Positions 35,564 through 58,941 are shown, counted from the first letter of the stretch. The stretch: 64,000 bases of DNA from Natronorubrum sediminis (GCF_900108095.1 NZ_FNWL01000001.1:434001-498000); one strand, 5' to 3'. Program-made: numbers and translations. The notes: generated by a model from the sequence alone, not told the origin.

Positions 35564-36964
35564 ATGACTACGACACTCAGCGACACCGAAACGCGAGCGG
35601 ACGAACGAGACCACGATCGATTTTCCCTCTCCTCGAGCGACGGGAACACGCCACTCGAGCACGTCGACGAGCGTGACGTCCGAGAGGCGACGATCTGTGT
35701 CGTCGGCCTCGGATACGTTGGCTTGCCACTCGCCGTTGGCTTCGCACAGTCGAACTATCGCGTCATCGGCTACGACGTCGACGAATCGACGGTCGAAAAG
35801 CTCCAAAACGGTGTCGACACGACCGGCGATCTCTCTTCCGAGGCAGTTGCGGACGACGACATTACGTACACGACTGACGACACCGAGATCGCCGAGGCGG
35901 ATTACGTTATCATCGCCGTCCCGACGCCGATCGACGACGGCGACCGACCCGACTTACAGTACGTCGAGAGCGCGGCAGCGACCGTCGGCTCGAAACTCAC
36001 GGTCGGGACGACCGTCATCCTCGAGTCGACCGTCTATCCGGGAACCACGCGCGACGTGCTCGTCCCGGAACTCGAGTCAGCCTCCGACCTCACCGCTGGC
36101 GAGGAATTCTTCGTCGGCTACTCGCCGGAACGGGCGACGCCAGGTGACTCCAAACACGGGCTCGCGGACGTCGTAAAGGTCGTCAGCGGTCAAAACGAGA
36201 CGATTCTAAATGACGTCGCGACGCTGTACGAATCGGTCGTCGACGCCGGCGTGCACCGAGCCGCGTCGATCGAAGTCGCCGAGGCCTCCAAGGTCGTCGA
36301 GAACACCCAGCGGGACCTCAACATCGCGTTCGTCAACGAACTCTCGATGGCACTCGAGCGCATGGACGTCGACTCACAGGCAGTCCTCGACGCGGCGGGA
36401 ACCAAGTGGAACTTCCACGATTACAAGCCCGGATTGGTGGGTGGTCACTGTATCCCGGTCGACCCGTACTTCCTCGCGTATCGCTCGGCCCAGGAAGGGT
36501 TCGACCCTGCCCTCATGCGCACGGGGCGGAAAGTAAACGAGTCGGTGTCGAACCACGTCGCCGACCTGACGATCAAAGCGCTCAATCAGTGTCACAAGAC
36601 CCTCCGCGACAGTCGCGTGCTGGTACTCGGCCTTTCATACAAACCGGACGTCGGTGACATTCGCAGCTCGAAAGTCGCCGACGTCGTCGAGAATCTCCGC
36701 GAGTACGACGTGGATATCGAGGGCTACGACCCACACGCCGATCACGAAGCGGTCAGCGAGGTGTTCGACCTGCACGTCCAGGACGACCTCTCGTTCGACG
36801 GAATCGACGCCGTCATCTTCGCGACCCCACACGCCGAGTTCGAATCGCTCGAGCTCGAGCAGATGGCCGCCGAACTGGGGGAGAACCCCGCACTTATCGA
36901 CGTGACGGGGACGTTCGACGAAGACGAAGCACACGCAGCAGGATTCGTTTATCGGAGGTTGTAA
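35564..36964 (+). CDS. Nucleotide-sugar dehydrogenase (UDP-glucose/UDP-ManNAc type)
   Basis: A 466-residue NAD-dependent enzyme that oxidises C6 of a UDP-sugar to a uronic acid. The Rossmann motif VVGLGYVGLPLAVGFAQ starts at 47; the central domain has GYSPERATPGD; the catalytic cysteine is Cys296 in GGHCIPVDPYFLAY; the UDP-binding C-terminus has VLVLGLSYKPDVGDIRSS. Residues 1-40 are an acidic extension. The WecC/AglM distinction (UDP-ManNAc versus UDP-glucose) cannot be made safely; the GLVGGHCIPVDPYFLA context fits the ManNAc-type group well. It is the first gene of a tight operon and the source of the acidic sugar. Confidence 0.92.
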   Translation: MTTTLSDTETRADERDHDRFSLSSSDGNTPLEHVDERDVREATICVVGLGYVGLPLAVGFAQSNYRVIGYDVDESTVEKLQNGVDTTGDLSSEAVADDDITYTTDDTEIAEADYVIIAVPTPIDDGDRPDLQYVESAAATVGSKLTVGTTVILESTVYPGTTRDVLVPELESASDLTAGEEFFVGYSPERATPGDSKHGLADVVKVVSGQNETILNDVATLYESVVDAGVHRAASIEVAEASKVVENTQRDLNIAFVNELSMALERMDVDSQAVLDAAGTKWNFHDYKPGLVGGHCIPVDPYFLAYRSAQEGFDPALMRTGRKVNESVSNHVADLTIKALNQCHKTLRDSRVLVLGLSYKPDVGDIRSSKVADVVENLREYDVDIEGYDPHADHEAVSEVFDLHVQDDLSFDGIDAVIFATPHAEFESLELEQMAAELGENPALIDVTGTFDEDEAHAAGFVYRRL

Positions 36965-36970
36965 CCGATA

Positions 36971-38041
36971 ATGCGAGTCGTGATAACGATTCAACACCCT
37001 GGTCACGTCCACTTCTTCCGACACCCGATCGCGGAACTGGAAGCGCGGGGACACGATGTGCACGTCTTCGCGCGCGAAAGCGACGTGGCGATTGCGCTCC
37101 TCGAGGCGTACGACATCGACCACGAGGTGTTAGCCGGGGAGTCCGATTCGCTGCTCTCGCTCGCTGCGGTCCAGGCGACGTACGAAAGTCGACTCCTCGC
37201 TCGAGCGCGACGCGTCGATCCCGATGTGATCACGGCCATCGGTGGCGTCGCCGCCGCCCACGTCGCGTCGGTCTTGCGCACGAAGAGCGTCGTCTTCTAC
37301 GATACGGAACACGCGACGCTGATCACGAAACTCGCGTACCCGTTCGCGGACGTGATCTGTACGCCGTCGTGTTACCGCGACGACCTCGGCGCGAAGCAGG
37401 TGCGCTACCCGGGCTATCACGAACTCGCGTACCTCCACCCCGACCGATTCGACCCCGACCCGTCCGTCCTCGAGTCTGTCGGCCTCGACGGCGACGACGA
37501 GTTCGCCGTCGTCCGCCTCAGCAGTTGGGAGGCGTCCCACGACGTCGGCCACGGCGGACTTTCGGATCCGCGAGCGGTCGTCGACCGTCTCGAGGACGCC
37601 GGGTTAGAAGTGCTCCTCACTGCGGAGGGACGTCCACCGGCAGACCTCGAGTCGGCGCAGTTCTCGACGCCGCCGGATCGACTCCACGACCTCCTCGCGC
37701 ACGCGAACCTCGTGGTGAGCGAGGGCGCGACGACGGCGACCGAAGCGGCCGTCCTCGGCACGCCGGCCGTCTACGCGAACCCGCTCTCGCTCGGCTATAC
37801 GGCCGAACTCGAGTCCGAGTACGGGTTGCTCTTCGAGTGTACCGACGAGAATCGACAGGAACGGACACTTGAGTCGATCGATTCGATCCTCGAGCGCGAT
37901 GAGGAGACGTGGGACCGACGACGGACCCGCATGCTCGACGACAGAATCGACGTGACCTCGTTCGTCGTCGACCGACTCGAGCGCCACGCGCGCCATCGAC
38001 CGATCGAACGACCCCTAACAGCCGACTCACACTACCGATGA
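36971..38041 (+). CDS. DUF354 family GT-B-fold protein
   Basis: A 356-residue protein of the DUF354 family, structurally like UDP-GlcNAc 2-epimerase and GT-B glycosyltransferases. It begins MRVVITIQHPGHVHFFRHPI and contains AIGGVAAAHVASVLRTKSVVFYDTEHA and the late nucleotide-binding type segment VSEGATTATEAAVLGTPAVYANP. Members are often found in archaeal surface-sugar loci; catalysis has not been settled. It is 6 nt after the dehydrogenase and overlaps the next gene by ATGA. Confidence 0.85.
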   Translation: MRVVITIQHPGHVHFFRHPIAELEARGHDVHVFARESDVAIALLEAYDIDHEVLAGESDSLLSLAAVQATYESRLLARARRVDPDVITAIGGVAAAHVASVLRTKSVVFYDTEHATLITKLAYPFADVICTPSCYRDDLGAKQVRYPGYHELAYLHPDRFDPDPSVLESVGLDGDDEFAVVRLSSWEASHDVGHGGLSDPRAVVDRLEDAGLEVLLTAEGRPPADLESAQFSTPPDRLHDLLAHANLVVSEGATTATEAAVLGTPAVYANPLSLGYTAELESEYGLLFECTDENRQERTLESIDSILERDEETWDRRRTRMLDDRIDVTSFVVDRLERHARHRPIERPLTADSHYR

Positions 38042-39000
38042 AGGTCCTTCAATTGGTTACCTCCCCGCGGCCGTTTTTCGACCAGCAGGTATCGGCACTC
38101 GAACGCCGCGGCGTCGACTGTACCGTCTGTGCCGTTCCAGGGGCACACAGCGGCGACTCGGGCCGGTCGCCGGCGGATTACGTCCGCTACTATCCGGCTA
38201 TTATCGATGCGATCAGATCAGAGGATTTTGACCTCGTGCACGCGAACTACGGGCTCGTCGCCCCGTTCGCACTCGCTCAGCCGACCCGCCCCGTCGTGAT
38301 GACACTGTGGGGGTCTGACCTTATGAGCGACAAGCGGTGGCTTCGCTCGATCAGCCGCGTCGGCGCTCGCCGCTCGGCCGCGACGATCGTTCCGAGCGAA
38401 CCGATGTCCCGCGAACTCGAGACCGAGCACGAACTGATTCCCTTCGGGGTGGATACAGCCACCTTCCAACCGATTCCACAGGAGGACGCACGCGAGCGGA
38501 TCGGTTGGGAGAGCGAGGACCCGATTGCACTCTTTCCATACGACCGGACTCGAGACGTCAAGGACTTCGAGCGGGCCCGTCGGCTGGTCGACGCCGTCGA
38601 GGCCGACCTCGAGTTGCGGACAGTCACCGGTGTTGACCACGATATGATGCCATATTACATGAACGCGAGCGACGCGCTGTTGGTAACCTCGAGACGCGAG
38701 AGCGGCCCGATGGTCGTCAAAGAGGCCGCGGCGTGTCGGTTGCCAGTCATCTCGACCGACGTCGGCTTCGTCCGGGAGACCGTCGCGGACGTCAGTCACT
38801 GCGTCGTCAGCGACGACGACGACCGACTCCGGGACGGCCTCGAGTCCGTCGCGACGACCCGCGCTCGCTCTAACGGCCGAGCGGTCGTCGACGGATTAGG
38901 ACTCGAGTCACTCGGCGAGAATCTACTGGGGGTGTACCGACGCGTACTCGATCGCGACGAGCCGTCGGGAACGCAGGCGGGGGTCACCCATGGCGTTTAA
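38038..39000 (+). CDS. Glycosyltransferase, GT4-like
   Basis: A 320-residue GT-B glycosyltransferase. The N-terminal domain begins MKVLQLVTSPRPFFDQQVSALERRGVDC and includes LVHANYGLVAPFALAQPTRPVVMTLWGSDLM. The C-terminal nucleotide-sugar domain has LLVTSRRESGPMVVKEAAACRLPVISTDVG, matching the EX7E-type region of GT4. The frame extends upstream, but this ATG overlaps the DUF354 stop (ATGA) and restores the family start. Sugar and acceptor are unknown. Confidence 0.88.
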   Translation: MKVLQLVTSPRPFFDQQVSALERRGVDCTVCAVPGAHSGDSGRSPADYVRYYPAIIDAIRSEDFDLVHANYGLVAPFALAQPTRPVVMTLWGSDLMSDKRWLRSISRVGARRSAATIVPSEPMSRELETEHELIPFGVDTATFQPIPQEDARERIGWESEDPIALFPYDRTRDVKDFERARRLVDAVEADLELRTVTGVDHDMMPYYMNASDALLVTSRRESGPMVVKEAAACRLPVISTDVGFVRETVADVSHCVVSDDDDRLRDGLESVATTRARSNGRAVVDGLGLESLGENLLGVYRRVLDRDEPSGTQAGVTHGV

Positions 39001-40969
39001 CACCTTATCCGAACTCCGTCCGCTGCGGATCGATACCGTCGCCGCAATCGTCGGACTCGCCCTCGCGTTGATTATGCTTCCACTGCGGTTTTTCGCCTCG
39101 CAGATCTATCTCAACACCGTCCCGATCGTTCTGGGGACGGCGTGTCTCCTCTATCTCGTCGCGCTCTATCAGGGAGAGTCGGAGTCGGAACTACCGACGT
39201 TGCCTTCGGGTGTGGCGATGGCGCTGCCGAGTTTCGTCCTGATCGGTCTCTCGGCACTCGTGGGACTGACGGTGATTCAGGGCCAGCGAACGACGGTGTT
39301 TTTCGGCCTGGCGAGCGTCGTCGGGACGCTCGTCCTCGGTCAGATACTCTTCGTCCACGAGCGCGACCTTCACCCCGGACTCATGCTGTTTCAGATCTTG
39401 GCTTTCGCGTTCGTCTTCCGATTTACCGCGCTTTACGCAACGCCGGGATACATCGGAATCGACATCTGGACGCACGCCGAGTTGACCCAGGACATTCTCG
39501 AGGCCCAATCCGTCAGTGGTATCGACCACGACAAACACTACGCGTCGCCGTTCTACCACCTGTTGGCTGCCTCGTCCTCGATCCTGTTCGACCTCCCGCT
39601 TCGGAGCGCGATCTACCTCTCCGTCGGCGTCGTGATGCCACTGTCGGTGTTACTCGTCTACGCGACGACGAACCTGCTGACGACGACGCGGTGGGCAATC
39701 TTCGCGACGGCGCTCTTTGCCTTCGCGAGTCACGTCACCCAGTGGGGACTGCACCTGATCCCGACGAGTCTCGGCCTCGTCTTCTTCCTCGGCATGTTGT
39801 ACGCCCTCGTCAGGGTGATGCGAATCGAGTACACACTTCGAGACTTCGCACTCTTAGTCCTGTTTAGCGTCGCCGTCATCCTGACCCATCAGGTGTCGAC
39901 GTTCATCATGCTCGTGCTCTTGTTGTCTGCATTCCTCGCCCAGCTCGTCTTCGAGATCGATCCGCTCGGTCTGACTCGAGTCGACACGAGCGTCTTCCGG
40001 ACGAAGAAGCCGGTCAACCTGATCGGGCTCGTCGTCTTCAACTTCGGGCTCACGATCTTCATGTGGTCGCTGACGCCCTATCGCGAGCAGTCGTTCCTCG
40101 CGACGGTGCTCGGATTCTTCACCGAGACGCTCGAGGAAAGTGCCGGTTTTCTCAACATCGCGAGCGACACCGGCGACGACGACGCCGAGGCGGCAGAAGC
40201 GGCGACGACGTTGCTCGATCAGGTTCTTCCCTACATCGATACGCTCGGCTTCCTCTTCTTGCTCGGGGCCACGTTCGTCGGGTGTCTGTACGTCGTCCAC
40301 CGGCGCAGAGCCGAACAGTCGGTGTTCACGCTCTTGCTCGCGTCGGCGATCATGCTGGTGTTCGTCCTGCTCTTGCCGATGTTCGGCATTCGAAACTTCA
40401 TCCCGACGCGATGGTTCGCGTTCCTCTTTGCACCAATGGCGATTCTCGCAGCGATCGGCCTTCGGATGCTCGTCGGGAGCCTCGATAGACGAGTCGTCGT
40501 CTCCGTCCTCCTCGTGTTCGTCCTCGTCTACCCCGGCGCGATGATCTTTGCAGCCGAGAGTAACGTCGACCAACCAGTGTTCGACGAGAATCACGAACAA
40601 CTGGCCTACAACGAAGCCGAACTCGCCGCAGTCGACAGTATCGGCGAGTTGACGGGCGCGCCTAACGGCAGTGAGATTCGTGAAGACCAGCGGCTGTACA
40701 CGGATCATCCGTATCAGACGGTGATCTATCGGACCGGAGCTTATGCTGAGACCGGGACACAGACCGCAATGGTGCCCGACGACGGCGCTGCCGAGCACGA
40801 CTACACCGTCTACCGATCGGCTCAATCAGATGCGGCGACACACTTCGAAGACGAGAACGAAGACCGACGCGTCAAACAAATCTCCGAAGGCCAACTCTGT
40901 GGACCGAATCAGGGAACGGTGTACACGAACGGCGACGTAACGATGTGCACGCCCGGTCCGAACTCGTAG
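38990..40969 (+). CDS. Polytopic membrane protein, GT-C-like candidate
   Basis: A 659-residue protein with about 12-13 membrane helices up to residue 525 and a soluble C-terminal domain of about 130 residues outside (ESNVDQPVFDENHEQLAYNEAELAAVDSIG ...). The first large loop has GYIGIDIWTHAELTQDILEAQSVSGIDHDKHYASPFYHLLAA, with acidic/His residues after the third helix pair as in GT-C glycosyltransferases that use lipid-linked sugars. I do not recognise a named family. A glycan transferase or polymerase role is inferred from layout and from position last in the operon, overlapping the GT4 gene by 11 nt. Confidence 0.6.
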   Translation: MAFNTLSELRPLRIDTVAAIVGLALALIMLPLRFFASQIYLNTVPIVLGTACLLYLVALYQGESESELPTLPSGVAMALPSFVLIGLSALVGLTVIQGQRTTVFFGLASVVGTLVLGQILFVHERDLHPGLMLFQILAFAFVFRFTALYATPGYIGIDIWTHAELTQDILEAQSVSGIDHDKHYASPFYHLLAASSSILFDLPLRSAIYLSVGVVMPLSVLLVYATTNLLTTTRWAIFATALFAFASHVTQWGLHLIPTSLGLVFFLGMLYALVRVMRIEYTLRDFALLVLFSVAVILTHQVSTFIMLVLLLSAFLAQLVFEIDPLGLTRVDTSVFRTKKPVNLIGLVVFNFGLTIFMWSLTPYREQSFLATVLGFFTETLEESAGFLNIASDTGDDDAEAAEAATTLLDQVLPYIDTLGFLFLLGATFVGCLYVVHRRRAEQSVFTLLLASAIMLVFVLLLPMFGIRNFIPTRWFAFLFAPMAILAAIGLRMLVGSLDRRVVVSVLLVFVLVYPGAMIFAAESNVDQPVFDENHEQLAYNEAELAAVDSIGELTGAPNGSEIREDQRLYTDHPYQTVIYRTGAYAETGTQTAMVPDDGAAEHDYTVYRSAQSDAATHFEDENEDRRVKQISEGQLCGPNQGTVYTNGDVTMCTPGPNS

Positions 40970-41057
40970 GAACGAAGTCAAGCGGACGGCGGTGTTTGAT
41001 CTCGAGACCGACACTCGTCGGGAGCAGCGTTTTCTCGCTCGACCAATTGTGAGGCGT

Positions 41058-42140
41058 ATGCACCCACGGGAGGACTCACTCGTCGTCTCAGCGATCGACA
41101 CACTCCCGATTACCATCGCTATCCTCGACGACGACGGAACCATTCTCCAGACGAATCGCGCCTGGTCCGAGTTCGCGACGGAAAACGACCTCGAGATGCA
41201 CCCCGATACGGTCGGCACAAATTATCTCGCGATCACCGCACAGGGGGAGACGGAACACGCTCAGACGGCAGCAACCGGGTTATCCGAGACGCTTTCGGGC
41301 GACCGCGAGGAATTCGAACTCGAGTACCCGTGTCACTCTCCCGACGAGCGACGGTGGTTTTTGATGCGAGCCGTCTCGTTTACCGAAGAGGGCGAGCGCT
41401 ACGTCGCCGTCGCACACTTCGACATCACCGAGCGCTACGAGTTCCGACACCAACTGGAGGCGTCCAACGAACGCCTCGAGCAATTCGCCTACGCCGTCTC
41501 CCACGACCTTCAGGAGCCGCTTCGAATGGTCACGAGTTACCTCGAACTCCTCGAACAGCGCTACGCAGGGGAACTCGATGCGGAAGCCGACGAGTTCATC
41601 GAATTTGCTGTCGGGGGAGCCACACGGATGGAGGCGATGATCGAGGGACTTCTCACGTACTCTCGAGTTCACACGCAAAACAATCTCGTTCAGCAGGTCG
41701 ATCTCGAGTCCGTCCTCGACGACGTCCGTGCGGATCTCGAGCGACGAATCGAGGAGACCGAGGCCGAAATCACCACTGACTCGCTCCCAGTCGTCGAAGG
41801 CAACGCGAGCCAACTTCGGCAGGTCTTCCAGAACCTAGTGGACAATGCACTCGAATACAGCGGTGGGGATTCGCCGCGAGTAACGATTTCGGCCGAACGA
41901 GCGGGTGATGAGTGGATCGTCTCCGTCAGTGATGAGGGAGTTGGAATGGACCCGTCGGACGCCGATCGAGTCTTCGACGTCTTCGAGCGCCTCCACAGTT
42001 ACGAAGAACACGAGGGAACGGGGATCGGCCTCGCACTGTGCCGGCGGATCATCGAGGAACACGGCGGTGAGATTTGGATCGATACCGAACCGTCCAACGG
42101 CATCACGGTTTCGTGTACGTTACCAGCCACAGACCAATGA
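41058..42140 (+). CDS. PAS-domain sensor histidine kinase
   Basis: A 360-residue soluble kinase. A PAS domain covers about 12-125 (AIDTLPITIAILDDDGTILQTNRAWSEFA), the dimerisation domain holds the phospho-acceptor His149 in YAVSHDLQEPLRMV, and the ATPase domain has the N box FQNLVDNALEYSGG, the D box VSDEGVGMD and the G box GTGIGLALCRRI. No membrane segment or receiver domain is present. Start at 41058 (MHPREDS) is chosen; the preceding frame is basic. No response regulator is adjacent, as usual in haloarchaea. Confidence 0.92.
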   Translation: MHPREDSLVVSAIDTLPITIAILDDDGTILQTNRAWSEFATENDLEMHPDTVGTNYLAITAQGETEHAQTAATGLSETLSGDREEFELEYPCHSPDERRWFLMRAVSFTEEGERYVAVAHFDITERYEFRHQLEASNERLEQFAYAVSHDLQEPLRMVTSYLELLEQRYAGELDAEADEFIEFAVGGATRMEAMIEGLLTYSRVHTQNNLVQQVDLESVLDDVRADLERRIEETEAEITTDSLPVVEGNASQLRQVFQNLVDNALEYSGGDSPRVTISAERAGDEWIVSVSDEGVGMDPSDADRVFDVFERLHSYEEHEGTGIGLALCRRIIEEHGGEIWIDTEPSNGITVSCTLPATDQ

Positions 42141-42175: not shown

Positions 42176-42754
42176 TCACGTTTGACGCTGAGTTCGGAGC
42201 CACCGCCAGGCGTCGGCCGCGATCGGTGCCCCGTCGACGATCCAGAGTGCGACGACGGCCCCGCCCAGAAACAGTTGCATGACGACTGGCGGCGTCAATC
42301 CACCGGCGAGAATTTCGTCGACGTACTGGAGGAAGTACACGCCGAAGTGATCGAGTAACCCTCCGTGGTCGTCAGCCGGCGGCGACTCGAGCGGCCAGAG
42401 TACGACCCGTGGTTCGACAGTAGGGTTCGGTCGCAGTGGATCGTACACGTCGGTCGCGAGGTGGGAGACGTACGCGAGCGTGAACGCCCCAGCGAGTACT
42501 CGCTCGCCGTATCTCGAGGCGACAAGGAAGACGACGAAACAGACGGCTGTCGCAAAAAATATCGAGTGACCGATCGAATACCCCGTCTCAGTGATGCCGA
42601 GTGACCAGGCGAGGGGCTTATCGATGAGATCTGGCAACTGAGAGCCGATGACGACGGCGAGCGTGTCCCAGGCCTTCGGCGGTCGTCTGAGGACGATTCG
42701 AGAAACAATCGAGTAGAGCACGTACGCGGCGGCGAGGTGTTCCCACGGCCACAT
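42176..42754 (-). CDS. YdjM/DUF457-like membrane-bound metal-dependent hydrolase
   Basis: A 192-residue membrane protein with about five helices. It starts MWPWEHLAAAYVLYS and has the family His/Asp set: WEHLA, GSQLPDLIDKP, TGYSIGHSIFF and YVSHLATDVYDPL. These residues match the LexA-regulated membrane-bound hydrolase (YdjM-like) family, whose substrate is unclear. The DUF1616 gene ends just before it (no gap), so they are cotranscribed. Confidence 0.8.
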   Translation of the reverse strand: MWPWEHLAAAYVLYSIVSRIVLRRPPKAWDTLAVVIGSQLPDLIDKPLAWSLGITETGYSIGHSIFFATAVCFVVFLVASRYGERVLAGAFTLAYVSHLATDVYDPLRPNPTVEPRVVLWPLESPPADDHGGLLDHFGVYFLQYVDEILAGGLTPPVVMQLFLGGAVVALWIVDGAPIAADAWRWLRTQRQT

Positions 42755-43759
42755 CTATTCGACCTCGATCGGCAGATGAATCGCTTCGTCTGCGTTCTCG
42801 GTCGTTGGGTCGGATGGTGGCTCCTCGGTGTAGAGCAACAGCGTGATTCGAAGGTCTTCTCCCTGCATCGACGGCGCGATTTCGAGGTCCTGTTCGACGG
42901 TTTCGCCGTCGGCGACGGTCGTCGATTCGCGATTGAGTTCCTCCGCTTCCTCCACGCTCGCCTCGCCGTCGTCGTCGTCGCTCACGTCCTCAAGTAAGGC
43001 GACGGTCGTATAGGTGTGTTCTTCGTGCTCCTCGTTCGTGATCGTGGTCGTGAGCGTTTCGCTCTCACCCGCGGCATAACTCGATTCGTACATCGTCTCG
43101 GTTTCACCAGTCACGTTCTCGGTTTCGATCGAAAACTCGGTGAACCCGTCGTGTTGTGGCGGGTTCGCGATTGCGAAGCCACCGGTCGCGAGTAACAAGA
43201 CGAGTCCGACGACGATCGCGACGTTGAACAGGTGTGGGTTCGGTCGCGAGCGGCTTTGAAATCCGGGTTGATCGCGTGACTGTGTTCGATAGAATATCCC
43301 GGACGAAAGCGACGGTACGAACCGTCTCTCTGCCGGACAGCGGTAGCGAGCGACGATAGCGAGCAACGACAGGACGATAGTGAGCAACGCAATCCCGGAG
43401 AGTACTGTTTCGAGGGTAAGACCCCCAGGGGTTGCAGAGGCTAGAATGGCAATCGACGGAACCAGCGCAACACTAAAGACGACCGACAGGACGAACCGCT
43501 CGACTGACTCGATGCCGCCGGTGACGACGAGTGGTGTTCCAAACCGACTCTTTTCGTCATCGAAGGACTGGTACTCGTCGGTCGGGTTATCTGGAAACAT
43601 CACGGAGACGAGCGCATACCCGGGAATAAAGAGGATAAGCGGCATCAAGAGTAGCGTTCGTGCGATGGTCCCGACACCGTAGAATACGGCAAACGTGCTA
43701 ATGCCAGTGATCGCAACGACGGCTGCCAAGTCAGAATACCACCAGTGGCTGTCACTCAT
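42755..43759 (-). CDS. DUF1616 membrane protein
   Basis: A 334-residue protein. Helices lie at about 8-28 and 34-54 (LLLMPLILFIPGYALVSVMFP, the DUF1616 signature), about 78-100 and 110-135, with a fifth at about 183-203 (VAIVVGLVLLLATGGFAIANP). A large extracellular C-terminal beta domain (FSIETENVTGETETMYESSYAAGESE..) resembles an immunoglobulin-like fold. DUF1616 genes are regular members of archaeal surface-glycan loci with no known activity. A TATA box at 43785-43794 is about 30 nt before 43759, so that ATG is chosen over 43771. Confidence 0.85.
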   Translation of the reverse strand: MSDSHWWYSDLAAVVAITGISTFAVFYGVGTIARTLLLMPLILFIPGYALVSVMFPDNPTDEYQSFDDEKSRFGTPLVVTGGIESVERFVLSVVFSVALVPSIAILASATPGGLTLETVLSGIALLTIVLSLLAIVARYRCPAERRFVPSLSSGIFYRTQSRDQPGFQSRSRPNPHLFNVAIVVGLVLLLATGGFAIANPPQHDGFTEFSIETENVTGETETMYESSYAAGESETLTTTITNEEHEEHTYTTVALLEDVSDDDDGEASVEEAEELNRESTTVADGETVEQDLEIAPSMQGEDLRITLLLYTEEPPSDPTTENADEAIHLPIEVE

Positions 43760-44146
43760 TATACGACTCAACGCAGACTCGAGGGTTTATTATCGGCACG
43801 GTAAGCCCGTATCGAGGGGGACGTCAGCCGACCGTCTTACGCCAATGTATCAAATATCGGATACAGAATCCACATAAGTCCCTTTCGGCGGTTGTAAACG
43901 CTTCCACGATACACAACAGTCACAAATCACAGATGATCGTTTTCAAATTCGTTGTACATTCACGAGAAATTAACTGTTTCGCACGAACTGTATTTCCCCC
44001 CACTGGGGCCTCAAACACTCGTTTTGGCTGTATAAAATGACTAAAAGGATCCGCTGAACGAAATGAATTCAACGAAATCGTCACTGCTGTGGATGTACAG
44101 TTTCAATGCTTTATTACTCCCTTCTGTTTACGGGGTAACTGGTGCG
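43760..44146. other. Divergent promoter region
   Basis: 387 nt. GATAATAAAC (43785-43794, minus) is the likely TATA box for the DUF1616 operon. CTTTATTAC (44110-44118, plus) lies about 33 nt before the ATG at 44147. The middle, 43850-44050, is AT-rich compared with the surroundings and has no gene. Confidence 0.5.
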
Positions 44147-44768: not shown

Positions 44769-45296
44769 TTAGACGATGAAAGTAAACGCGACGAACAGCA
44801 TCGTTCCGACCAGCAAGAGCGACAACAACACGAACAGTGTCGTCGACGAGTTCATCACTGCGACTCGTGAGCCGGATGCGGCAACGGCGACGCCGCTATT
44901 GGCCCCGGGTTCCGTGTGTGCCGGTCGCTCGACGAGCCCCTGGCTCTTATCGAACACGAGGGCACCAGAGTCAGCGAGCGCTGGTAGTCGCACCTCGTGT
45001 AACTGCTCGTGAATGCTCGCCCAGGTTTCGACCGGCGGACGTTCCGATCCGACGAGTTGGTCGGCTACCTCGTCGACTGTGACGGGCGTGTTCAGTTCAT
45101 CGATTTCGGTTACGAGTGCGATATCAGAGTCTGGAATGTACGTCGAGGCCTGTTCGTCTGCTCGTGAACCGGCCTCCATTCCTTCGTCTAATGGGGTGTG
45201 ATAAATCGTCACGCCCCCGTTATCGTCGGAATCGGTGGAGCCGTCCCCAGCGGCATCTTCCGACGAAGAACGGACCCAAGACGGCGTCAGACGCAT
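44769..45296 (-). CDS. DUF7344-like winged-helix protein with C-terminal anchor
   Basis: A 175-residue protein. An acidic N-terminus (about 1-50) is followed by a winged-helix region, IALVTEIDELNTPVTVDEVADQLV and IHEQLHEVRLPALADSGALVFDKSQGLVE, and one C-terminal helix (STTLFVLLSLLLVGTMLFVAFTFIV). TTATATA at 45319-45325 (minus) is centred 26 nt before the ATG at 45296, a textbook leaderless promoter that excludes the in-frame ATG at 45311. It converges on the regulator at 44147. Confidence 0.75.
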   Translation of the reverse strand: MRLTPSWVRSSSEDAAGDGSTDSDDNGGVTIYHTPLDEGMEAGSRADEQASTYIPDSDIALVTEIDELNTPVTVDEVADQLVGSERPPVETWASIHEQLHEVRLPALADSGALVFDKSQGLVERPAHTEPGANSGVAVAASGSRVAVMNSSTTLFVLLSLLLVGTMLFVAFTFIV

Positions 45297-45318
45297 ACTT
45301 CGCGCTATCATTGCGCAG

Positions 45319-50408: not shown

Positions 50409-51641
50409 TCAGCACACGTTGTGTCGCTCGTAGAAGCGCCGCACGCGGTCGTCCGTCAGCAACGGCCCGTGGACCTGAATCGATTTCATCCCCGGATAGC
50501 TGTTGGCTTCGATGATTTTGAACTCGCCACCGTCACCAGTCACGATCACGTCCCACCCGGCGTAAGGAACGAACGAGCACGCATCTGCAATCTCGAGCAA
50601 CCGCGTTCGAATGTCCTCCCAGCCGGGAACCTGTGTCCCGTCGATCGTTGTCTCGGTCTCGGGGTGATCGGAGTGCCACTCGAGTCTGTTTCCGTCGCTG
50701 AGTTTCACGCCGGGACCGAGTTCGCCCGTCTCGAGGTCGATTTCTGCGGAGAGGCCACCCTGTGTAAAGTTGTCCAGCGGTTCGGACGTCTCGGTTCCGA
50801 TTCGGTGGATGGCTGCGGCGATGAAGGGCTCCCCGGCCTCCTCGTCGTACATCGTGATAATTCGAAGGGTGTTCGGCGTTACCGGATAGAATCCCGCCGA
50901 GAACGTGCCCTGTTCGACGTGCTCACAGACGAGGTACTCCTCGAGGTCGGCGACCAGCGACCGAAACGCCGACTCGCTGTAGCGGTCACCGTTGACCGTA
51001 TACCCGTCTTCACAGCGTTTGCACAACAACACGTTGTTTCCACCACCGCCGTGGACCCACTTCAAGACGAGTTGTGATTCGGACTCGAGTCGGTCGACGA
51101 CTCGCTGTGCCGCGTCATTCGGTTCGGGTGAGGTCAGTCCGCTCTGGTCGTCGATCGACGGACCATCACTCGAGACGACGGCTCCGCCGTCAGTCAACTC
51201 GTGGCGAGCGTCGATCGAGTCGATCGAGTGGAACGACCCATCACGGATCATGCCGTAAACGTCCATCCGATGCTCGTCGAATGGGCCCATGAGCTGGTGG
51301 AAGAGGAGTTTGTTCGAGAGCGCGACGGACCACGTGCCGTTGATACGTTTGGTTTTGACGAATCGCTGATAATCAGTCAAGTACGAGTCGTGGTTCTTTT
51401 TCGTCAGACCGAAAACGGCGTCCGATCGGCTCAGAAAGCCCCGACGCCAGAGCCAGAGTCGTCGCTGAATCGAGGGTGAAACCGACGCTTCGCGTTCGGT
51501 CGTCACGAGGTCCTGTACCCCCCGAGCCGTGTGATAGAGTTTGCGGACGTTCACGTCCGAATAACACAGCGAACCGATGTTAGTTATCGATCCGACAAGG
51601 CCGTTGCACGACCAGTATCGGTCACCGGAATCGTTCGACAC
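50409..51641 (-). CDS. Sugar-transfer-associated ATP-grasp protein
   Basis: A 410-residue ATP-grasp enzyme. Residues about 75-130 form the N-terminal subdomain (FGLTKKNHDSYLTDYQRF, LSNKLLFHQLM). Then come LVLKWVHGGGGNNVLLCKR (the ATP-binding loop), CEHVEQG and TPNTLRIITMYD, AAIHRIGT, and the metal-binding end YAGWDVIVTGDGGEFKIIEANSYPG. This is the pattern of the sugar-transfer-associated ATP-grasp family found in polysaccharide loci. It is expected to form an amide by activating a carboxylate with ATP. No signal or membrane segment. It is next to GT2 on the same strand. Confidence 0.85.
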   Translation of the reverse strand: MSNDSGDRYWSCNGLVGSITNIGSLCYSDVNVRKLYHTARGVQDLVTTEREASVSPSIQRRLWLWRRGFLSRSDAVFGLTKKNHDSYLTDYQRFVKTKRINGTWSVALSNKLLFHQLMGPFDEHRMDVYGMIRDGSFHSIDSIDARHELTDGGAVVSSDGPSIDDQSGLTSPEPNDAAQRVVDRLESESQLVLKWVHGGGGNNVLLCKRCEDGYTVNGDRYSESAFRSLVADLEEYLVCEHVEQGTFSAGFYPVTPNTLRIITMYDEEAGEPFIAAAIHRIGTETSEPLDNFTQGGLSAEIDLETGELGPGVKLSDGNRLEWHSDHPETETTIDGTQVPGWEDIRTRLLEIADACSFVPYAGWDVIVTGDGGEFKIIEANSYPGMKSIQVHGPLLTDDRVRRFYERHNVC

Positions 51642-51703: not shown

Positions 51704-52705
51704 TTACTCGTCCTCGAGGCGGCCTGAGACCGTGTGTACGCCGTACCCAACGACGATCGCGCTGAGCAGTGTCAGTACCGTTATGATCACTGCAACTGGT
51801 GCCGGTCGACGGCGGACTCCCGTTGCAACGGCCCAGCCAAGACCAGGATACTGTCGCGGAGCGACACCCGCATTTCGCAAGTGCCACGCCGCTCGAAGGA
51901 TTCGTCCCTCGCTGGCGTACGCTTTCGCGAGAATGAGTTCGTGACTCGAGTGAATGTCGTATCCTTCCGCTTCGAAGCGATCGATCGTGTCGGCGTATCG
52001 CTCCCGATAGGCCTCGTTTGCACCCCTGATCAGATCGGCCGACGGCTGACCGGTATCTTCGCGCACCACGAGTTCCTCGTCGACGTAGGCGAGGTTCCCC
52101 GCCTCGAGCACTCGGAGACAGAACTCGGGGTCCTGGAACCGATCGAGTTCTTCGTCGAAGCCGCCGACGGCCCGGGCGACGTTGGTCCGAACGAGCAACG
52201 TCGAGCCGGCACCCGGCTGGACGTTGTCGGCGAGAATTTCACCGATCAGTTCGTCGCCGCCTTCCATCGTCGGCTGTTCGTCACCGCTCGCGAGCACCGT
52301 TGCAGCCGTCGTGCGGAGCAGCCCACTCGTCCCGGACAGTTCGAGCGTCGAGTCGCAGTACGCGCCGACCCACGCTTCGGAGCGTCCCTCGAGAACGGCG
52401 AGTTGTCGCTCGAGTTTCGTCGGGTCCCACACGTCGTCGGAGTCGAGGAAGGCGACGTACTCGCCGCGGGCGTGTGCGAGGCCGGTGTTTCGAGCCACGT
52501 TCGCCCCCTGGTTCGTCGCGTGGACGATCGGTCGGACGCGCCTGTCGTCGTACGCCGAGAGCACGGTCGCCGTTTCGTCGGTCGAACCGTCGTCGACGAC
52601 GACCACCTCGAGATCGTCGACCGTTTGTGCGAGTGCGCTATCGATCGCACGCGAGAGCGACCCCGCTCTGTTGTACGTTGGAATAATGACGCTGACACGG
52701 GTCAT
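51704..52705 (-). CDS. Family 2 glycosyltransferase with C-terminal membrane segment
   Basis: A 333-residue GT-A enzyme. It starts MTRVSVIIPTYNRAGSLSRA and has EVVVVDDGSTDET, GANVARNTGLAHARGEYVAFLDSDDVWD (DxD) and a long region of helices. A C-terminal hydrophobic segment (about 303-325, APVAVIITVLTLLSAIVVGYG) anchors it to the membrane. Donor and acceptor are unknown. It is 62 nt from the ATP-grasp gene and divergent from the next GT2. Confidence 0.92.
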   Translation of the reverse strand: MTRVSVIIPTYNRAGSLSRAIDSALAQTVDDLEVVVVDDGSTDETATVLSAYDDRRVRPIVHATNQGANVARNTGLAHARGEYVAFLDSDDVWDPTKLERQLAVLEGRSEAWVGAYCDSTLELSGTSGLLRTTAATVLASGDEQPTMEGGDELIGEILADNVQPGAGSTLLVRTNVARAVGGFDEELDRFQDPEFCLRVLEAGNLAYVDEELVVREDTGQPSADLIRGANEAYRERYADTIDRFEAEGYDIHSSHELILAKAYASEGRILRAAWHLRNAGVAPRQYPGLGWAVATGVRRRPAPVAVIITVLTLLSAIVVGYGVHTVSGRLEDE

Positions 52706-53008
52706 ATACGCGACGCTAGGTCAACGGATTGCATTATTATCTGGTCGGTAAACTGCTCGAGACGGCGGTTTCGAGCAATTAGCGTCGTCGTCGAGGGAGA
52801 CCAATACGCGTCGACAGATTCGGGTCGTACTCGAGACAGCGACCAACCTAAGACGTGTATAAGAAAGGCTAAATCGGTCGTCGACGCCCACAATGACGAA
52901 TCGAGACCGACGAGTACGCTGGCGATCGAGCGAATGCGCCGACGATCCGTTCGTGCAGCGACGGCGACGGCGACCCTGCGACGGGAAGCGACTGGGGGAG
53001 ATGGCCTA
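52706..53008. other. Region between divergent glycosyltransferases
   Basis: 303 nt. AT-rich ATTATTAT near 52732-52740 may serve the minus-strand GT2. The open frame upstream of 53009 on the plus strand is arginine-rich and not considered coding. Nothing else seen. Confidence 0.45.
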
Positions 53009-54064
53009 ATGTATCGCGGAGCGAGCGTGGGCGTCGTGCTCCCGGCGTACAACGAGGCGGGATTCGTCGGCGATGTCATCCGGGAGATGCCCGAGTACGT
53101 CGACCGAATGTACGTTATCGACGATCAATCGACTGACAGCACGTGGGAAGAGATCCTCGACGCTGCTCGAGACGATGCCACCGCGAACGGGACGCCTCAG
53201 TCGGGTGAACGGGCAGCTCTCGTCGCCGACGGCGGGACGTCGGTCCTCAATCGCGCCTCGGTCCACGAGACCATCGGCCGCGTCGTCCCAATCCGCCACA
53301 CCGAAAACCGCGGGGCTGGCGGCGCGATCAAGACGGGTTACCTCGCGGCGCGAGAGGACGGCGTCGACGTGACGACGACCGTCGACGCGGACGGCCAGAT
53401 GGATCTCTCGCAACTCCCGCAGTTGCTCGACCCGATCGTCGATGGCAAGGCCGACTACGCGAAAGGGAATCGTCTCCTCTCGCGTGAGTATCGCGCGACC
53501 ATGCCTCGATTTCGGTTCATCGGAAACTCGATGTTGACGTTTCTGACGAAGATTTCCTCGGGCTACTGGAAGACGATGGACCCCCAAAACGGGTATACGG
53601 CCATCTCACACGACGCACTGGACGCAATCGACCTCGAGAACCTCTACGAGTACTACGGTTACTGCAACGACATTCTCGTCAAACTCAACGTGCAGGAGAT
53701 GCGCGTCGCCGACGTCGCGATGCCGGCCCTCTACGGCGACGAGGAGTCGAGTATCCAGTACTCACAGTACATCCCGAAGGTCTCGACCATGTTGCTCCAG
53801 AACTTCCTCTGGCGGCTCAAGACGAAGTACCTCACCGTCGACTTCCATCCGCTTGCGCTGTTCTACCTCGTCGGCGGTGGATTGGCCGCGAGCGGGGCCC
53901 TCGCGATCGGCGCGCTGCTCATCTCGCTGCTCTCGAGTGTCGTTCCGACGCTCTTGGGCGCGACGACGAGTTTGCTATTGGTGATCTCCGGTATCGCGTT
54001 CTTGCTGTTCGCGATGGTGTTCGACATGGCAGAGAGCGAGCGCCTCGAGATGCAGGTGCAGTGA
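53009..54064 (+). CDS. Family 2 glycosyltransferase, dolichol-phosphate-sugar synthase-like
   Basis: A 351-residue protein. The GT-A domain has VGVVLPAYNEAGFVGDVI, MYVIDDQSTDST, RGAGGAIKTGYLAA and TTVDADGQMDLSQLPQLL, then AKGNRL, which together fit the DPM1/AglJ-like group that charges a polyprenyl phosphate carrier. The C-terminus has two helices at about 285-340. The first sugar of a lipid-linked glycan is a reasonable inference. The start is the ATG at 53009 (MYRGASVG); an earlier start would add several hundred low-quality residues. Confidence 0.9.
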   Translation: MYRGASVGVVLPAYNEAGFVGDVIREMPEYVDRMYVIDDQSTDSTWEEILDAARDDATANGTPQSGERAALVADGGTSVLNRASVHETIGRVVPIRHTENRGAGGAIKTGYLAAREDGVDVTTTVDADGQMDLSQLPQLLDPIVDGKADYAKGNRLLSREYRATMPRFRFIGNSMLTFLTKISSGYWKTMDPQNGYTAISHDALDAIDLENLYEYYGYCNDILVKLNVQEMRVADVAMPALYGDEESSIQYSQYIPKVSTMLLQNFLWRLKTKYLTVDFHPLALFYLVGGGLAASGALAIGALLISLLSSVVPTLLGATTSLLLVISGIAFLLFAMVFDMAESERLEMQVQ

Positions 54065-54204: not shown

Positions 54205-55842
54205 TCAGGACGACATGAACTCCAACTCGGCACCGAGCAGTCCCAAAATGACTCCGGAGAGAAGCAACGAGAGCCCGGTGAGGAATAACAGCCACTGGAG
54301 TCCCTCACTCGGTGGCCGGGTTCCAATCCTCGCTTCGATTCGCTCCTGAATCGACTCGGCCGTCGCGCCCACGGTTCCCGGCGCGTGCGCGAGAATTTCG
54401 AACGGCTCGCTGAGATCGAGCGCGCCGACGAGGAGTGCGAAGGCAACGAAGAGTACGAACCCGAGGGGCGGAACGACGGCGAGCGCGAGCCACGGGTTCG
54501 AGATGGTCGTCGCGAGCGCGACGATAGGGATCCCAGCGAGGACGGTCGTGATGGTCGCCCGAACGAGACGTGCGTCCTCGAGCGGATCGAATCCGACGAC
54601 GCGGGCGCTCCAACAGTGGAACGCGAACATCGTTCCGTAGCCGATACTGGTCGCGACCGCCGCACCGACCATCCCGTACGTCGGAATGAGGGCGACGTTG
54701 AGGACGACGTTGATCAGGGCCGCACCACCGGTTGCCGCGACGGGGTATCGAAGGGTCCCATTCCCCTGAGAAATCGCGAGAACCGGGCGCGCGAGTGCGA
54801 ATCCGAGCGATCCCGGCAACAACAATAGTAGCGGGGCGATAGCCGGAATCGCCTCGTCGCCGAAGTAAATCGGGACGGCGACGTCTGCCAGTGCAGCGAG
54901 ACCGACGGCCATCACAGCCGTCAGCAAAAACGTGTACCGAGTCGTTCGAGCGGCCAGTTCCGAAATCTTCTGGCGACGATTCTGCGACCAAAGCTCCGAC
55001 GTCGAGTGGACGAATACGGTCTGAATCGCGAGCGGAACGAACCAGAGGAATTCGGCGAGCGTCAGTGCCGCCCGGTAGTTTCCGACGTCGTCGCTCGAGG
55101 TAAACTGCTGGAGCATGACGATGTCGATGTGGTAGAGCGACATCAACAAGAACACGAGCGCGATGCTCATCGTGTTGAACGTGAGCATCTGTTTTCGCGG
55201 GAACTCCCGGGACGGCAAACTGGCCACGCACGACAGCGAGACGCGACGATTGACGATCACTAACCCGCCGACGGCGACGAGCACGCTGGCGACGAGGTGG
55301 CCCGCGAGTGCCCCCGTGACGCCGAACCCGAGCGCGACGAGTGGAATCGCGACGAAGACGAACCCGACCTTATCGAGGATCTTCAGCGGTTCCGAGTATC
55401 GCTCGAGTCCGAATCCCATCAGCGTCTTTCTGGCGTAATCGCGAAACTGTGCCGTCACCACGAGAACGGCGAGCACGTAGAAGTACGGCGCGAGGTCACT
55501 GCCGAACGCAGCGTCGACGACGCCGCTCGAGGCGGCCCACATCATCACGCCAGCACCGAGGACGGCGAGGATGACGGCGAGTCGGAAGTAAAAGCCGACG
55601 ACGTGTTCGCTCCAGTTCGCCTCCCGTCGGTCTTCTGCGAGGAATTTTCTGACGCCGTCCGTGATCCCCGAACTGACGAAGATCATGTAGATGGCGAAGA
55701 CGGACATCAAAAACGCGTAGTCCCCGAATCCTGCTGCACCGAGATAGCGATACAAAAGCGGCGTCGAAACCGCCGTCAGGATGAGTACGACGACTTTCGA
55801 ACTGACGACGGAAAAGACTCCACTCGCGATACTTCTGTTCAC
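54205..55842 (-). CDS. Polysaccharide flippase (MATE-superfamily, Wzx/AglR-like)
   Basis: A 545-residue protein with about 14 helices, starting MNRSIASGVFSVVSSKVVVLILTAVSTPLLYRYLG. It has ASSGVVDAAF and LALGFGVTGALAGHLVASVL type segments and ends in two helices (LQWLLFLTGLSLLLSGVILGLLG). It fits lipid-linked oligosaccharide exporters, and would move the glycan built by the neighbouring transferases across the membrane. It converges with GT2. Confidence 0.9.
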   Translation of the reverse strand: MNRSIASGVFSVVSSKVVVLILTAVSTPLLYRYLGAAGFGDYAFLMSVFAIYMIFVSSGITDGVRKFLAEDRREANWSEHVVGFYFRLAVILAVLGAGVMMWAASSGVVDAAFGSDLAPYFYVLAVLVVTAQFRDYARKTLMGFGLERYSEPLKILDKVGFVFVAIPLVALGFGVTGALAGHLVASVLVAVGGLVIVNRRVSLSCVASLPSREFPRKQMLTFNTMSIALVFLLMSLYHIDIVMLQQFTSSDDVGNYRAALTLAEFLWFVPLAIQTVFVHSTSELWSQNRRQKISELAARTTRYTFLLTAVMAVGLAALADVAVPIYFGDEAIPAIAPLLLLLPGSLGFALARPVLAISQGNGTLRYPVAATGGAALINVVLNVALIPTYGMVGAAVATSIGYGTMFAFHCWSARVVGFDPLEDARLVRATITTVLAGIPIVALATTISNPWLALAVVPPLGFVLFVAFALLVGALDLSEPFEILAHAPGTVGATAESIQERIEARIGTRPPSEGLQWLLFLTGLSLLLSGVILGLLGAELEFMSS

Positions 55843-56122: not shown

Positions 56123-57190
56123 ATGAGTCAGGAATCGACGCGCCGTCGCTTCATCGGTGCGAGCGGAGTCGGTGCGATCGGATTGATGGCTGGGTGTACC
56201 GATTCGCTCACCGGCGATGGCGCCGAGTCCGACGATACCGGGAGCGACGACGAGAATGGAGATGGGGACGACTCAGACGACATCGACGACGGCGACGACG
56301 TTCCGGACCTCGATGGCGGCGCGGTCGTTTTCGTCTACGACGACGGTCCGATGGAAGACTACGACGACGCGTTTCCTGTCCACGAGGAGTTCGACGCTCC
56401 TGCCAGTACGGGAGTCGTCACCGAGTGGATGGGCCGAGAGGACTTCAACGACAGCGACTGGATGGACGTCGAGCACATGGAGGAACTCGTCGACGCTGGC
56501 TGGGAGATCATGTCCCACACGACGGCCCACACCGCACTCGGCTCGTTCGAACTCGTCGAAGACGTCGAGTCCGACGACACCAGAATTTATCCGGAAGAGC
56601 GCAACCACGGTTTCCACCAGGGCTACGACATCGAAATTACTGACGGTGAGGACAGCGTCCAGCGAACGGTCGTCGACTCCGATACCGACGACATCGGGGG
56701 CTACCTCGAGTTCGGGGAGTCCATCGGGGAATCCTTCGCCGCCGGCGAGACGGTCGAACGCTACCCCGAAGACGTCATGCACGAGTTCCTCGGCGAGTCG
56801 AAGTCGGAACTCGAGTCACTCGGCTTCGAGATCGAGACGTTGCTTGCTCCGTACGACATCGTCGACGACTGGGCGATCGATGTCGCGCGCGAGTACTACG
56901 ACGGCATCGCGAACGTCAACCCAGGGTCGATGTACAACGATCCCGACTCGCTCGACGCCTTCGATACGAACCGAGACTACTTCATCGAGTTTACGACGCC
57001 AGAAGAAGTCGAGGCCGACCTCGAGCACGTCGCCGCCGAGGAGGCGATCGGTATCATCGGCGCGCATACGTTCAAAGAGGAAGTGACTGCGGAGCGAATT
57101 CGCGAAACGCTCGAGTGGGTCGAAGACCACGACCTCGAGGTACTCACGTTCCGCGAGGCCCTCCACGCGACAGGAGCGCTCGAGGGCTGA
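56123..57190 (+). CDS. Tat lipoprotein polysaccharide deacetylase (second)
   Basis: A 355-residue secreted protein. Tat signal STRRRFIGASGVGAIGLMAGC, lipobox Cys25, then an Asp-rich linker (about 30-60). The NodB-like domain starts with GAVVFVYDDGPMEDYDDAF (metal Asp pair), has MSHTTAHTAL (canonical HxxxH) and ends with HTFKEEVTAERI. It has no separate carbohydrate-binding domain, unlike the paralog at 47386. A TATA-like ATAAGTATA lies about 36 nt upstream. Confidence 0.86.
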   Translation: MSQESTRRRFIGASGVGAIGLMAGCTDSLTGDGAESDDTGSDDENGDGDDSDDIDDGDDVPDLDGGAVVFVYDDGPMEDYDDAFPVHEEFDAPASTGVVTEWMGREDFNDSDWMDVEHMEELVDAGWEIMSHTTAHTALGSFELVEDVESDDTRIYPEERNHGFHQGYDIEITDGEDSVQRTVVDSDTDDIGGYLEFGESIGESFAAGETVERYPEDVMHEFLGESKSELESLGFEIETLLAPYDIVDDWAIDVAREYYDGIANVNPGSMYNDPDSLDAFDTNRDYFIEFTTPEEVEADLEHVAAEEAIGIIGAHTFKEEVTAERIRETLEWVEDHDLEVLTFREALHATGALEG

Positions 57191-57291
57191 AGGTATGAGT
57201 TCCACATGGTGACCGCTTCGCCGGATACCACGTCCGGGGAGTCTGCTGCCGGCAGCGTTCACCTCGCGCCGGCACGGGGGAGACCGGTCGA

Positions 57292-58941
57292 CTAGGTGGT
57301 ATTCTGCCAGTCGGTGACGTTCGTCGCACCGAGGTCGTCGATTCCGTTTACGATGGTGTTCGCACGGAGTTCGGGGCCGTCGATATCGGGATAGAGTCGA
57401 ACGCCCTCGCGAGAGCTGTTGTCGGATTCTGCGTGGGCATTTCGGAACACGTTCCCGTTTCCTTGGTCGACGTAGGGGTACTGACTCGCACGGAACGTCC
57501 CTTGATAGACCGTCGTATCGTCGGCGGCGACGACGAGGCCGTTCCGGTCGTCACCGCCGCGGCCGGGCTGGTCGACACTCACGTGACTAAAGCGACAGTT
57601 GTCGCGACCGCAGCGAATCCCGTCCTGGAAGCCGGCGTTCGTGACGCCTGCCTCACCCGAAATGTCGGTGAGTTCGACGAGGACGCGATCGTCCTTGGTG
57701 GTGTCTCGGATCCAGAGCGGGTAGCCGCCGGCCGCTTCGTGGACGATTTCGGAGTTGACGATGTGCGTGTAGCCCGCCTCGGGAGAGACGACGACGCCGT
57801 GGTTCACCTCGTCTCCGGAGATTTCGACCGACGTCTCCTCGATTCGAGAGCTCCGACAGGTGTTCATCACGGCGATCGCGTGGCTGGTCGACTGTGGCGA
57901 GGTGATCGTGATGTCGACGTTGTCGACGTGGATGTCGTCTGCGTTCTCGAGTCGAACCGCGCGCTGACTGTTGTCGTAGGAGCGCGTTCGGTCGACGACG
58001 ACGCTTACGTCTCTGATGACGCTATCCTGGCCGCCGATGCGGACGTTCGCGCCGTTACTGTTCGCGAATCGGCCGCCTTCGACGGTGACCGTCCCCTCTT
58101 CGTTGATCGCGTAAATACCGTTGTCGGGGAACCCGCCGAGCTCACAGTCGACGAACTCGAGTTCGCCGACGTTCGTGTTCGCCTCGATACCGATTGGACC
58201 TCGCCAGATGTTCCCGGCATTCGGCGTCTGGTCGGCGTGAAGCCCACCGTCAGGCGCGTGGAACCGTTCGACGGTTCCGTGGCCACTCGGTTCGGTCATG
58301 GCGAACATTCCGGGACCCCACGTTCCGCTATCGTGCTCTCCCTCGATGGTAATATCTCGCACCTCGAGGTGTTGGGAGACGTTCGCTTCGATTACCCGAA
58401 TACCCGTATCGGACGCCGTCTGATCGACGTCGAAGCCTTCGAAGAGCAAGTCTCCACCAGGGCTGTAGGAAACGCCGAGGCGAAAGAGCCTGAACTGCGG
58501 GCCAGCAAAATCGTGGTAATTCGCCGGGACCAGCGTTGCGCCGTCCCCAACCATTCCGAATTGGTCGAATCCCGTAAAGCGGAACTGTTCGTCCATATAG
58601 TATCGCCCCTCGGGGAACACGAGCAGCGTGTTATCTGCTCGGAGGTCCTCGAGGACGGGATTGATCGACTGTGATCCGCTGGTATCTGCACCAGCATCGG
58701 CGACGTTGACGACGTTGTCGTAGTTGCCACCGTATTCTGATTCCGGATTCGCCGTTGCCTGCATGGCTGTTGCCAGACCGAGTCCGGCAACGCCCGTACC
58801 AACGATTCCACGAAGGAATGTTCGTCGTGACCCACTTCCACATGAGTGTACATCCGAACGGCGTCCGTTTTGTTCGTTACTCGCGTCGGTCTGAGGGACC
58901 ACCTCATGACCTGTAGACTTCGTACTACTTCGTTCCGACAT
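57292..58941 (-). CDS. Secreted right-handed beta-helix protein
   Basis: A 549-residue protein. A hydrophilic leader of 36 residues precedes the Tat motif SRRTFLRGIVGTGVAGLGLATAMQATA. The rest shows repeated parallel beta-helix rungs (DNGIYAINEEGTVTVEGGRFANSNGANVRI; VDNVDITITSP). The first turn is like the pectate-lyase superfamily NVADAGADTSGSQSINPVLEDLRADNTLLVFPEGRYYMD, so it may be a polysaccharide-binding or -degrading enzyme. No catalytic residues can be assigned. Start at 58941 (MSERSS) or 58950. Confidence 0.82.
   Translation of the reverse strand: MSERSSTKSTGHEVVPQTDASNEQNGRRSDVHSCGSGSRRTFLRGIVGTGVAGLGLATAMQATANPESEYGGNYDNVVNVADAGADTSGSQSINPVLEDLRADNTLLVFPEGRYYMDEQFRFTGFDQFGMVGDGATLVPANYHDFAGPQFRLFRLGVSYSPGGDLLFEGFDVDQTASDTGIRVIEANVSQHLEVRDITIEGEHDSGTWGPGMFAMTEPSGHGTVERFHAPDGGLHADQTPNAGNIWRGPIGIEANTNVGELEFVDCELGGFPDNGIYAINEEGTVTVEGGRFANSNGANVRIGGQDSVIRDVSVVVDRTRSYDNSQRAVRLENADDIHVDNVDITITSPQSTSHAIAVMNTCRSSRIEETSVEISGDEVNHGVVVSPEAGYTHIVNSEIVHEAAGGYPLWIRDTTKDDRVLVELTDISGEAGVTNAGFQDGIRCGRDNCRFSHVSVDQPGRGGDDRNGLVVAADDTTVYQGTFRASQYPYVDQGNGNVFRNAHAESDNSSREGVRLYPDIDGPELRANTIVNGIDDLGATNVTDWQNTT

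Follow-up and report, generated by a model that had tools for sequence, protein, structure and literature searches.

Which product do the genes at positions 35564-58941 of the Natronorubrum sediminis DNA analysed here make, and do they act together at all? The stretch (64,000 nucleotides, hereafter the window) belongs to contig C1; the haloarchaeal genome from which it comes measures 3.78 Mb. A first-pass annotation had described a surface-glycan locus that it could not match to a known pathway. We consider it probable that the locus is the Natrialbaceae version of a haloarchaeal acidic exopolysaccharide (EPS) cluster, dolichol-dependent, of N-acetylglucosaminuronic acid (GlcNAcA) type and with tailoring enzymes exported by the twin-arginine translocation (Tat) pathway. 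The observations behind it are the genes, folds, catalytic motifs, synteny, co-occurrence and separation from N-glycan genes; from them we infer substrates, step order, polymer composition and the roles of the AsnB-like and ATP-grasp proteins. The earlier proposal of one surface-polysaccharide system with a sugar acid and exported deacetylases is supported, the export being of Tat type.

The locus genes were compared with the loci of relatives by tblastn, with presence counted over 149 relatives. About 18 adjacent genes keep a near-constant order in many haloarchaea and thus form a conserved block. In Natrialbaceae the order is DUF7343, dehydrogenase, DUF354, GT4 glycosyltransferase, GT-C, DUF457, DUF1616 and two DUF7344 genes, followed by AsnB-like, deacetylase, M14, ATP-grasp, GT2, deacetylase, GT2, flippase, beta-helix and BAT genes; it varies by small losses and moves, and in many relatives the interval between dehydrogenase and DUF354 holds a polyprenyl-phosphate-synthase-like GT2. 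The relative G034 carries the cluster as well. GlmS stands upstream of it in 10 of the 10 relatives with enough flanking sequence. A second survey, anchored independently on the AsnB-like gene, covered 56 haloarchaeal loci; within 10 kb of this gene were found GT-C (47 loci), DUF1616 (47), DUF354 (46), dehydrogenase (45) and flippase (44). The two surveys of gene order (~40 and 45 loci) share species in part. In several Haladaptatus and in Halomicrococcus the cluster is plasmid-borne.

GT-C orthologues, called at a threshold of at least 480 bits, occur in 64/149 genomes and the AsnB-like gene in 66/149, including all 64 with GT-C; the remaining two have a GT-C match at 427-450 bits, below the threshold. 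Ten genera are mixed, with species having both genes or neither and never one alone, one of the ten depending on an incomplete genome (G047). Chance clustering was rejected, as the order is conserved in dozens of genomes and the presence of GT-C and AsnB-like genes is linked. Orthologues scattered over other genomes would have argued against a single system; they do not show such a pattern, because the order is conserved and the two genes vary together. We conclude that the listed genes form one system. The sugar-transfer-associated ATP-grasp ligase (ATPgrasp_ST; 50409-51641, - strand; PF14397, 104 bits) is an accessory and not a core member, because only part of the loci have it. One relative, G022, has a split version: GT-C is the last gene of its cluster, and the AsnB-like gene is found ~195 kb away.

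The sugar acid is indicated by the dehydrogenase (35564-36964, + strand; TIGR03026, 385 bits). It scores 352 bits with the TviB profile, 246 with that of the archaeal UDP-N-acetylmannosamine (UDP-ManNAc) dehydrogenase and 183 with AglM, and is below the equivalog cut-off of all three. TviB is a UDP-N-acetylglucosamine (UDP-GlcNAc) 6-dehydrogenase. The best two PDB neighbours are a UDP-ManNAcA (N-acetylmannosaminuronic acid) dehydrogenase and Cap5O. The active-site segment GGHCIPVDP is kept in orthologues, and the AglM of the same genome reads GGSCFPKD; we take the two to be marks of N-acetylhexosamine and glucose enzymes, respectively. Judged by profile, PDB neighbours and this signature, the enzyme is most likely of the UDP-N-acetylhexosamine (UDP-HexNAc) type. 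Its product is most likely UDP-GlcNAcA, because a TviB-like dehydrogenase is accompanied by GlmS, the glutamine--fructose-6-phosphate transaminase (31746-33551, - strand; MCGI start; TIGR01135, 717 bits, cut-off 418). Two further full glmS genes are found in the genome, on contigs C2 and C5. A third nucleoside diphosphate (NDP)-sugar dehydrogenase gene (contig C5:132710), with a GGHCIPYYP signature like that of the second dehydrogenase of Haloferax clusters, lies near an AglJ-like GT2 match and may mark a second glycan locus.

Two other sugar acids have to be weighed. If the DUF354 protein (36971-38041, + strand; PF04007) were a UDP-GlcNAc 2-epimerase, the acid would be ManNAcA. A PDB sequence search with this protein gave no significant match. 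Its AlphaFold2 (AF2) model (predicted local distance difference test, pLDDT, 90) has a GT-B fold, for which Foldseek returned WecB as the best TM-score (0.71) and glycosyltransferases as the best E-values. The epimerase assignment has in its favour this WecB match and the UDP-ManNAc dehydrogenase as second-best equivalog of the cluster dehydrogenase. However, the stretch that by eye aligns with the catalytic HGD of WecB reads GG, as in MurG; because of this motif, and in line with the E-values, we favour a MurG-like sugar transferase and regard ManNAcA as rather unlikely. A polymer based on glucuronic acid (GlcA), with a dehydrogenase using UDP-glucose, has a precedent in the EPS of Haloarcula hispanica, which contains GlcA made through AepG (PMC9943897). 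Here the dehydrogenase groups with UDP-HexNAc enzymes both by its active-site signature and by its profile scores, the UDP-glucose type dehydrogenase of the genome is located outside the cluster, and GlmS lies within it, so we consider a GlcA-based polymer quite improbable.

How might a unit containing GlcNAcA be assembled and exported? The dehydrogenase and DUF354 genes are separated by 6 bases, and overlaps of 4 and 11 bases follow through DUF354, GT4 (38038-39000, + strand; PF00534/PF13439, start set by homology) and GT-C (38990-40969, + strand), so that the four are packed like a single transcription unit. The GT-C protein gave no match in Pfam, NCBIfam or PDB sequences (PDB being searched with the GT-C alignment). 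Its AF2 model (pLDDT 84) has AftA, AglB/STT3/PglB and ArnT as the best PDB structure matches, and all 20 PDB matches at E<=0.001 are GT-C enzymes. Residue D158, invariant within G-x-D-x-W-x-H, fits an acidic residue in the early outer loop. The modelled fold thus confirms a GT-C glycosyltransferase, and the 'GT-C-like' label of the first-pass annotation is borne out by structure prediction and not by a sequence family; the protein is a candidate polymerase or side-sugar transferase. One GT2 enzyme (51704-52705, - strand; PF00535, 127 bits) has a C-terminal membrane segment. The other (53009-54064, + strand), polyprenyl-phosphate sugar synthase-like, has several; its resemblance to AglJ is distant, and its layout resembles that of AepG, the dolichyl phosphate-GlcA synthase of H. 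hispanica that works for EPS and not for S-layer glycans (PMC9943897). Reading 51734-54064 as a single protein of 776 aa was rejected, the gene being the last part only, from 53009. A flippase of the MOP superfamily (Wzx/MurJ type; 54205-55842, - strand; PF01943, PF13440) completes the set.

These gene kinds (GT2, flippase, NDP-sugar dehydrogenase) are also those of Agl N-glycosylation clusters, and the first-pass annotation had hinted at an N-glycan. In such a case the product would be a glycan of S-layer proteins or pilins, N-linked or bound to protein in another way, and attached by AglB or by GT-C acting as oligosaccharyltransferase; the flippase and dolichol-type GT2 are compatible with this, and AglB/STT3 is among the GT-C enzymes that the GT-C model resembles. 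Unlike in Agl clusters, the AglB, AglJ and AglM equivalogs lie elsewhere in the genome. The only STT3-family gene (AglB), rightly said to be missing from the window, is on contig C2, as are the genuine AglJ (452 bits, cut-off 325) and AglM (688 bits, cut-off 670), which adjoin each other. In the cluster, GT2 scores with the AglJ profile are 58-75 bits (TIGR04182, cut-off 325; 75 bits for 53009-54064), and the dehydrogenase reaches 183 of the 670 bits required for AglM. Many relatives lack the module, and the similar GT2 AepG serves EPS. The N-glycan hint therefore lacks support, and we regard a protein-linked glycan as unlikely.

The AsnB-like protein (45450-47132, - strand) is harder to place. 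The AsnB-like ligase named by the first-pass annotation is recognisable from a TIGR01536 match, although its 50 bits are far below the cut-off of 267. Aligned to E. coli AsnB by hhalign, over a stretch that stops short of the AsnB general-base glutamate, it has a pyrophosphatase (PP) loop of the SGGxDS kind, here SAGYDS, in which S227, G229, Y230, D231 and S232 are invariant. The catalytic Cys2 of the glutamine amidotransferase (GATase) domain is absent from 59/59 loci (the 56 above and three plasmid loci), where the N-terminus reads M(or V)-x-x-x-x-FGV or near it. With Cys2 missing in all loci, the protein is, to judge from its sequence, incapable of canonical glutamine hydrolysis. A genome scan revealed no AsnB reaching the TIGR01536 cut-off. 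The best other AsnB-like genes of this genome are also without an MCG start, and haloarchaea may commonly have AsnB-like proteins of this cysteine-less kind. Bacterial TviB/WbpO-type pathways (Vi antigen, O antigens) likewise have a UDP-HexNAc 6-dehydrogenase beside an AsnB-family gene; they differ from the present cluster with its AsnB-like protein without GATase cysteine, its GT-C enzyme and no recognised Wzy.

Could this protein amidate the uronic acid from glutamine, giving a uronamide polymer? The constant company of an AsnB-family protein and its retained PP-loop speak for amidation, which the first-pass annotation had thought possible. Against it stand the missing cysteine, which leaves no canonical glutaminase, the score far under the AsnB cut-off, and Haloferax mediterranei, whose cluster has the same gene and whose EPS structure, in the summary given in PMC5467301, is described without an amide. 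We regard amidation from glutamine as very unlikely. An ATP-dependent ligase that would activate the sugar acid at its carboxylate and link it to an amine other than glutamine ammonia (from an amino sugar, an amino acid or a lipid) is put forward here only as a tentative, rather doubtful suggestion.

Modification outside the cell is indicated by four proteins with export signals. Polysaccharide deacetylases 1 (47386-48711, + strand) and 2 (56123-57190, + strand), both PF01522, have Tat-type lipoprotein signals, and their metal ligands are kept within NodB-type Asp-Asp and His motifs: WDD and HGTH, conserved, in the first; YDDG and SHTTxH, conserved in its few orthologues, in the second. The exported enzyme previously called amidohydrolase-like (48739-50259, - strand) is indeed exported, by Tat; its family, however, is that of AstE/AspA (M14-like) deacylases, with a PKD domain (PF24827, PF18911) and conserved zinc motifs HGNE, LNRQF and DLHES. 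The right-handed beta-helix protein (57292-59034, - strand; weak PF13229/PF12708 matches) also has a Tat-type signal and is a candidate epimerase, lyase or scaffold. Over 85% of its length and at 25% identity, deacetylase 1 aligns with a viral protein, the turret head protein of HFTV1 (8qpg), which is proposed to act on host glycans (PMC12494034). Plasmid pHGLR2 of the HFTV1 host, H. gibbonsii LR2-5, holds a version of the cluster, in which no deacetylase is annotated. A scan of viral contigs for the deacetylase returned no relative.

Is there then a described system to which the locus belongs? Its nearest counterpart lies on a plasmid of the slime-producing H. mediterranei ATCC 33500 (NZ_CP039140.1, ~442-471 kb), so the core does match a cluster of EPS type, contrary to the first-pass annotation. 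Identities to the window are 57% for the dehydrogenase, 49% for DUF354, 45% for GT-C, 43% for the AsnB-like protein, 62% for GlmS, 49-51% for the GT2 enzymes, 42% for the flippase and 29-39% for DUF1616 and DUF457; M14-like and beta-helix proteins are shared too. The H. mediterranei cluster differs in its order and in having a second dehydrogenase, GlmU, an acyltransferase and another ATP-grasp family, whereas the PF14397 ATP-grasp, the two deacetylases and the DUF7344 pair are found in the window only. According to the summary in PMC5467301, the H. mediterranei EPS repeat consists of one mannose and two GlcNAcA, one of them sulfated, and deletion of a gene cluster abolishes the EPS. The window has the homologous core and the genes for UDP-GlcNAc supply and 6-oxidation (GlmS, TviB-like) expected of a GlcNAcA-type EPS cluster. 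Clusters of Haloferax relatives contain GlmS and GlmU, and in two cases GlmM. No polysaccharide deacetylase was found in the Haloferax versions compared; exported deacetylases within the cluster are new with respect to these.

Compared by published description, the EPS genes of H. hispanica (HAH_1661-1667, AepG HAH_1206) are alike in serving an acidic EPS with a dolichol-phosphate GT2 that has two C-terminal membrane segments, and unlike in that the EPS contains GlcA and the genes form two clusters (PMC5467301, PMC9943897). Within Natrialbaceae, exopolysaccharide-like material was seen by transmission electron microscopy in Natrialba magadii, and the 2012 gene list for this species names, apparently from the same region, deacetylases Nmag_3271 and 3278, glycosyltransferases 3273, 3275 and 3285 and polysaccharide protein 3272, individually and not as a cluster (PMC3403918, as far as the list and text consulted go).

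Taken together, a pathway may be proposed. GlmS would begin UDP-GlcNAc supply, and the TviB-like dehydrogenase would convert UDP-GlcNAc to UDP-GlcNAcA. The GT2 with the membrane tail would load sugar onto dolichyl phosphate, while DUF354 (MurG-like), GT4 and the other GT2 would assemble a lipid-linked unit inside the cell for the flippase to move outside. There GT-C, with either dolichyl-phosphate sugar or this lipid-linked unit as its substrate, would extend or polymerise the chain, which the Tat-exported deacetylases, the M14-like deacylase and the beta-helix protein would then modify. The DUF7343, DUF7344 and BAT proteins would be the regulators of the cluster.

Several points weigh against this pathway. 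DUF354 could still be a 2-epimerase leading to ManNAcA. GlmU was not found in the window cluster, and no Wzy-type polymerase was recognised among its genes with Pfam and NCBIfam; the polymerase role given to GT-C is a guess. The pathway includes no step for the AsnB-like protein. The plasmid cluster of H. mediterranei is likely, though not certainly, its EPS locus, and we found no product analysis for the cluster in any Natrialbaceae.

The gene kinds named by the first-pass annotation are all present as real open reading frames at their places, with family support. The conserved block, however, is wider than its bounds: GlmS and the DUF7343 regulator upstream (34557-35273, - strand; membrane-anchored winged-helix; PF24034, 94 bits; position conserved) had been left out. 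At the other edge lies an HTH_10/BAT regulator (59230-59892, - strand; PF04967), also conserved in position. The membrane-anchored regulators noted earlier are the DUF7344 pair: a helix-turn-helix protein (44063-44734, + strand; PF24035) and a divergent second copy (44769-45311, - strand; PF24035 at 22 bits, below the cut-off; position conserved). A further DUF7344 regulator beyond the edge (60272-60934) is conserved in some relatives only. The DUF457/YdjM membrane protein (42176-42754, - strand; PF04307) pairs in relatives with the DUF1616 membrane protein (42755-43771, - strand; PF07760, 274 bits). A PAS histidine kinase (40992-42140, + strand) was rejected as a member, as the order in relatives does not conserve it at this position. 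Upstream, ordinary respiratory complex I genes occupy 6886-17882 (three proton-antiporter-type subunits, NADHdh and a 49/30 kDa fusion).

Archaeal EPS pathways are almost unmapped, and the locus provides a well-delimited set of genes, conserved in many haloarchaea, that suggests a candidate sugar acid and steps open to experiment. The set includes a GT-C glycosyltransferase, likely extracellular, that no family model covers, and an AsnB-like enzyme, found throughout the clusters, whose annotated activity cannot be right. The exported deacetylase connects the cluster with a haloarchaeal virus, through its homologue in the HFTV1 turret and a host carrying a version of the cluster. If the AsnB-like protein is indeed a ligase of the kind suggested, it would give a surface polymer of archaea an amide linkage of a new kind.

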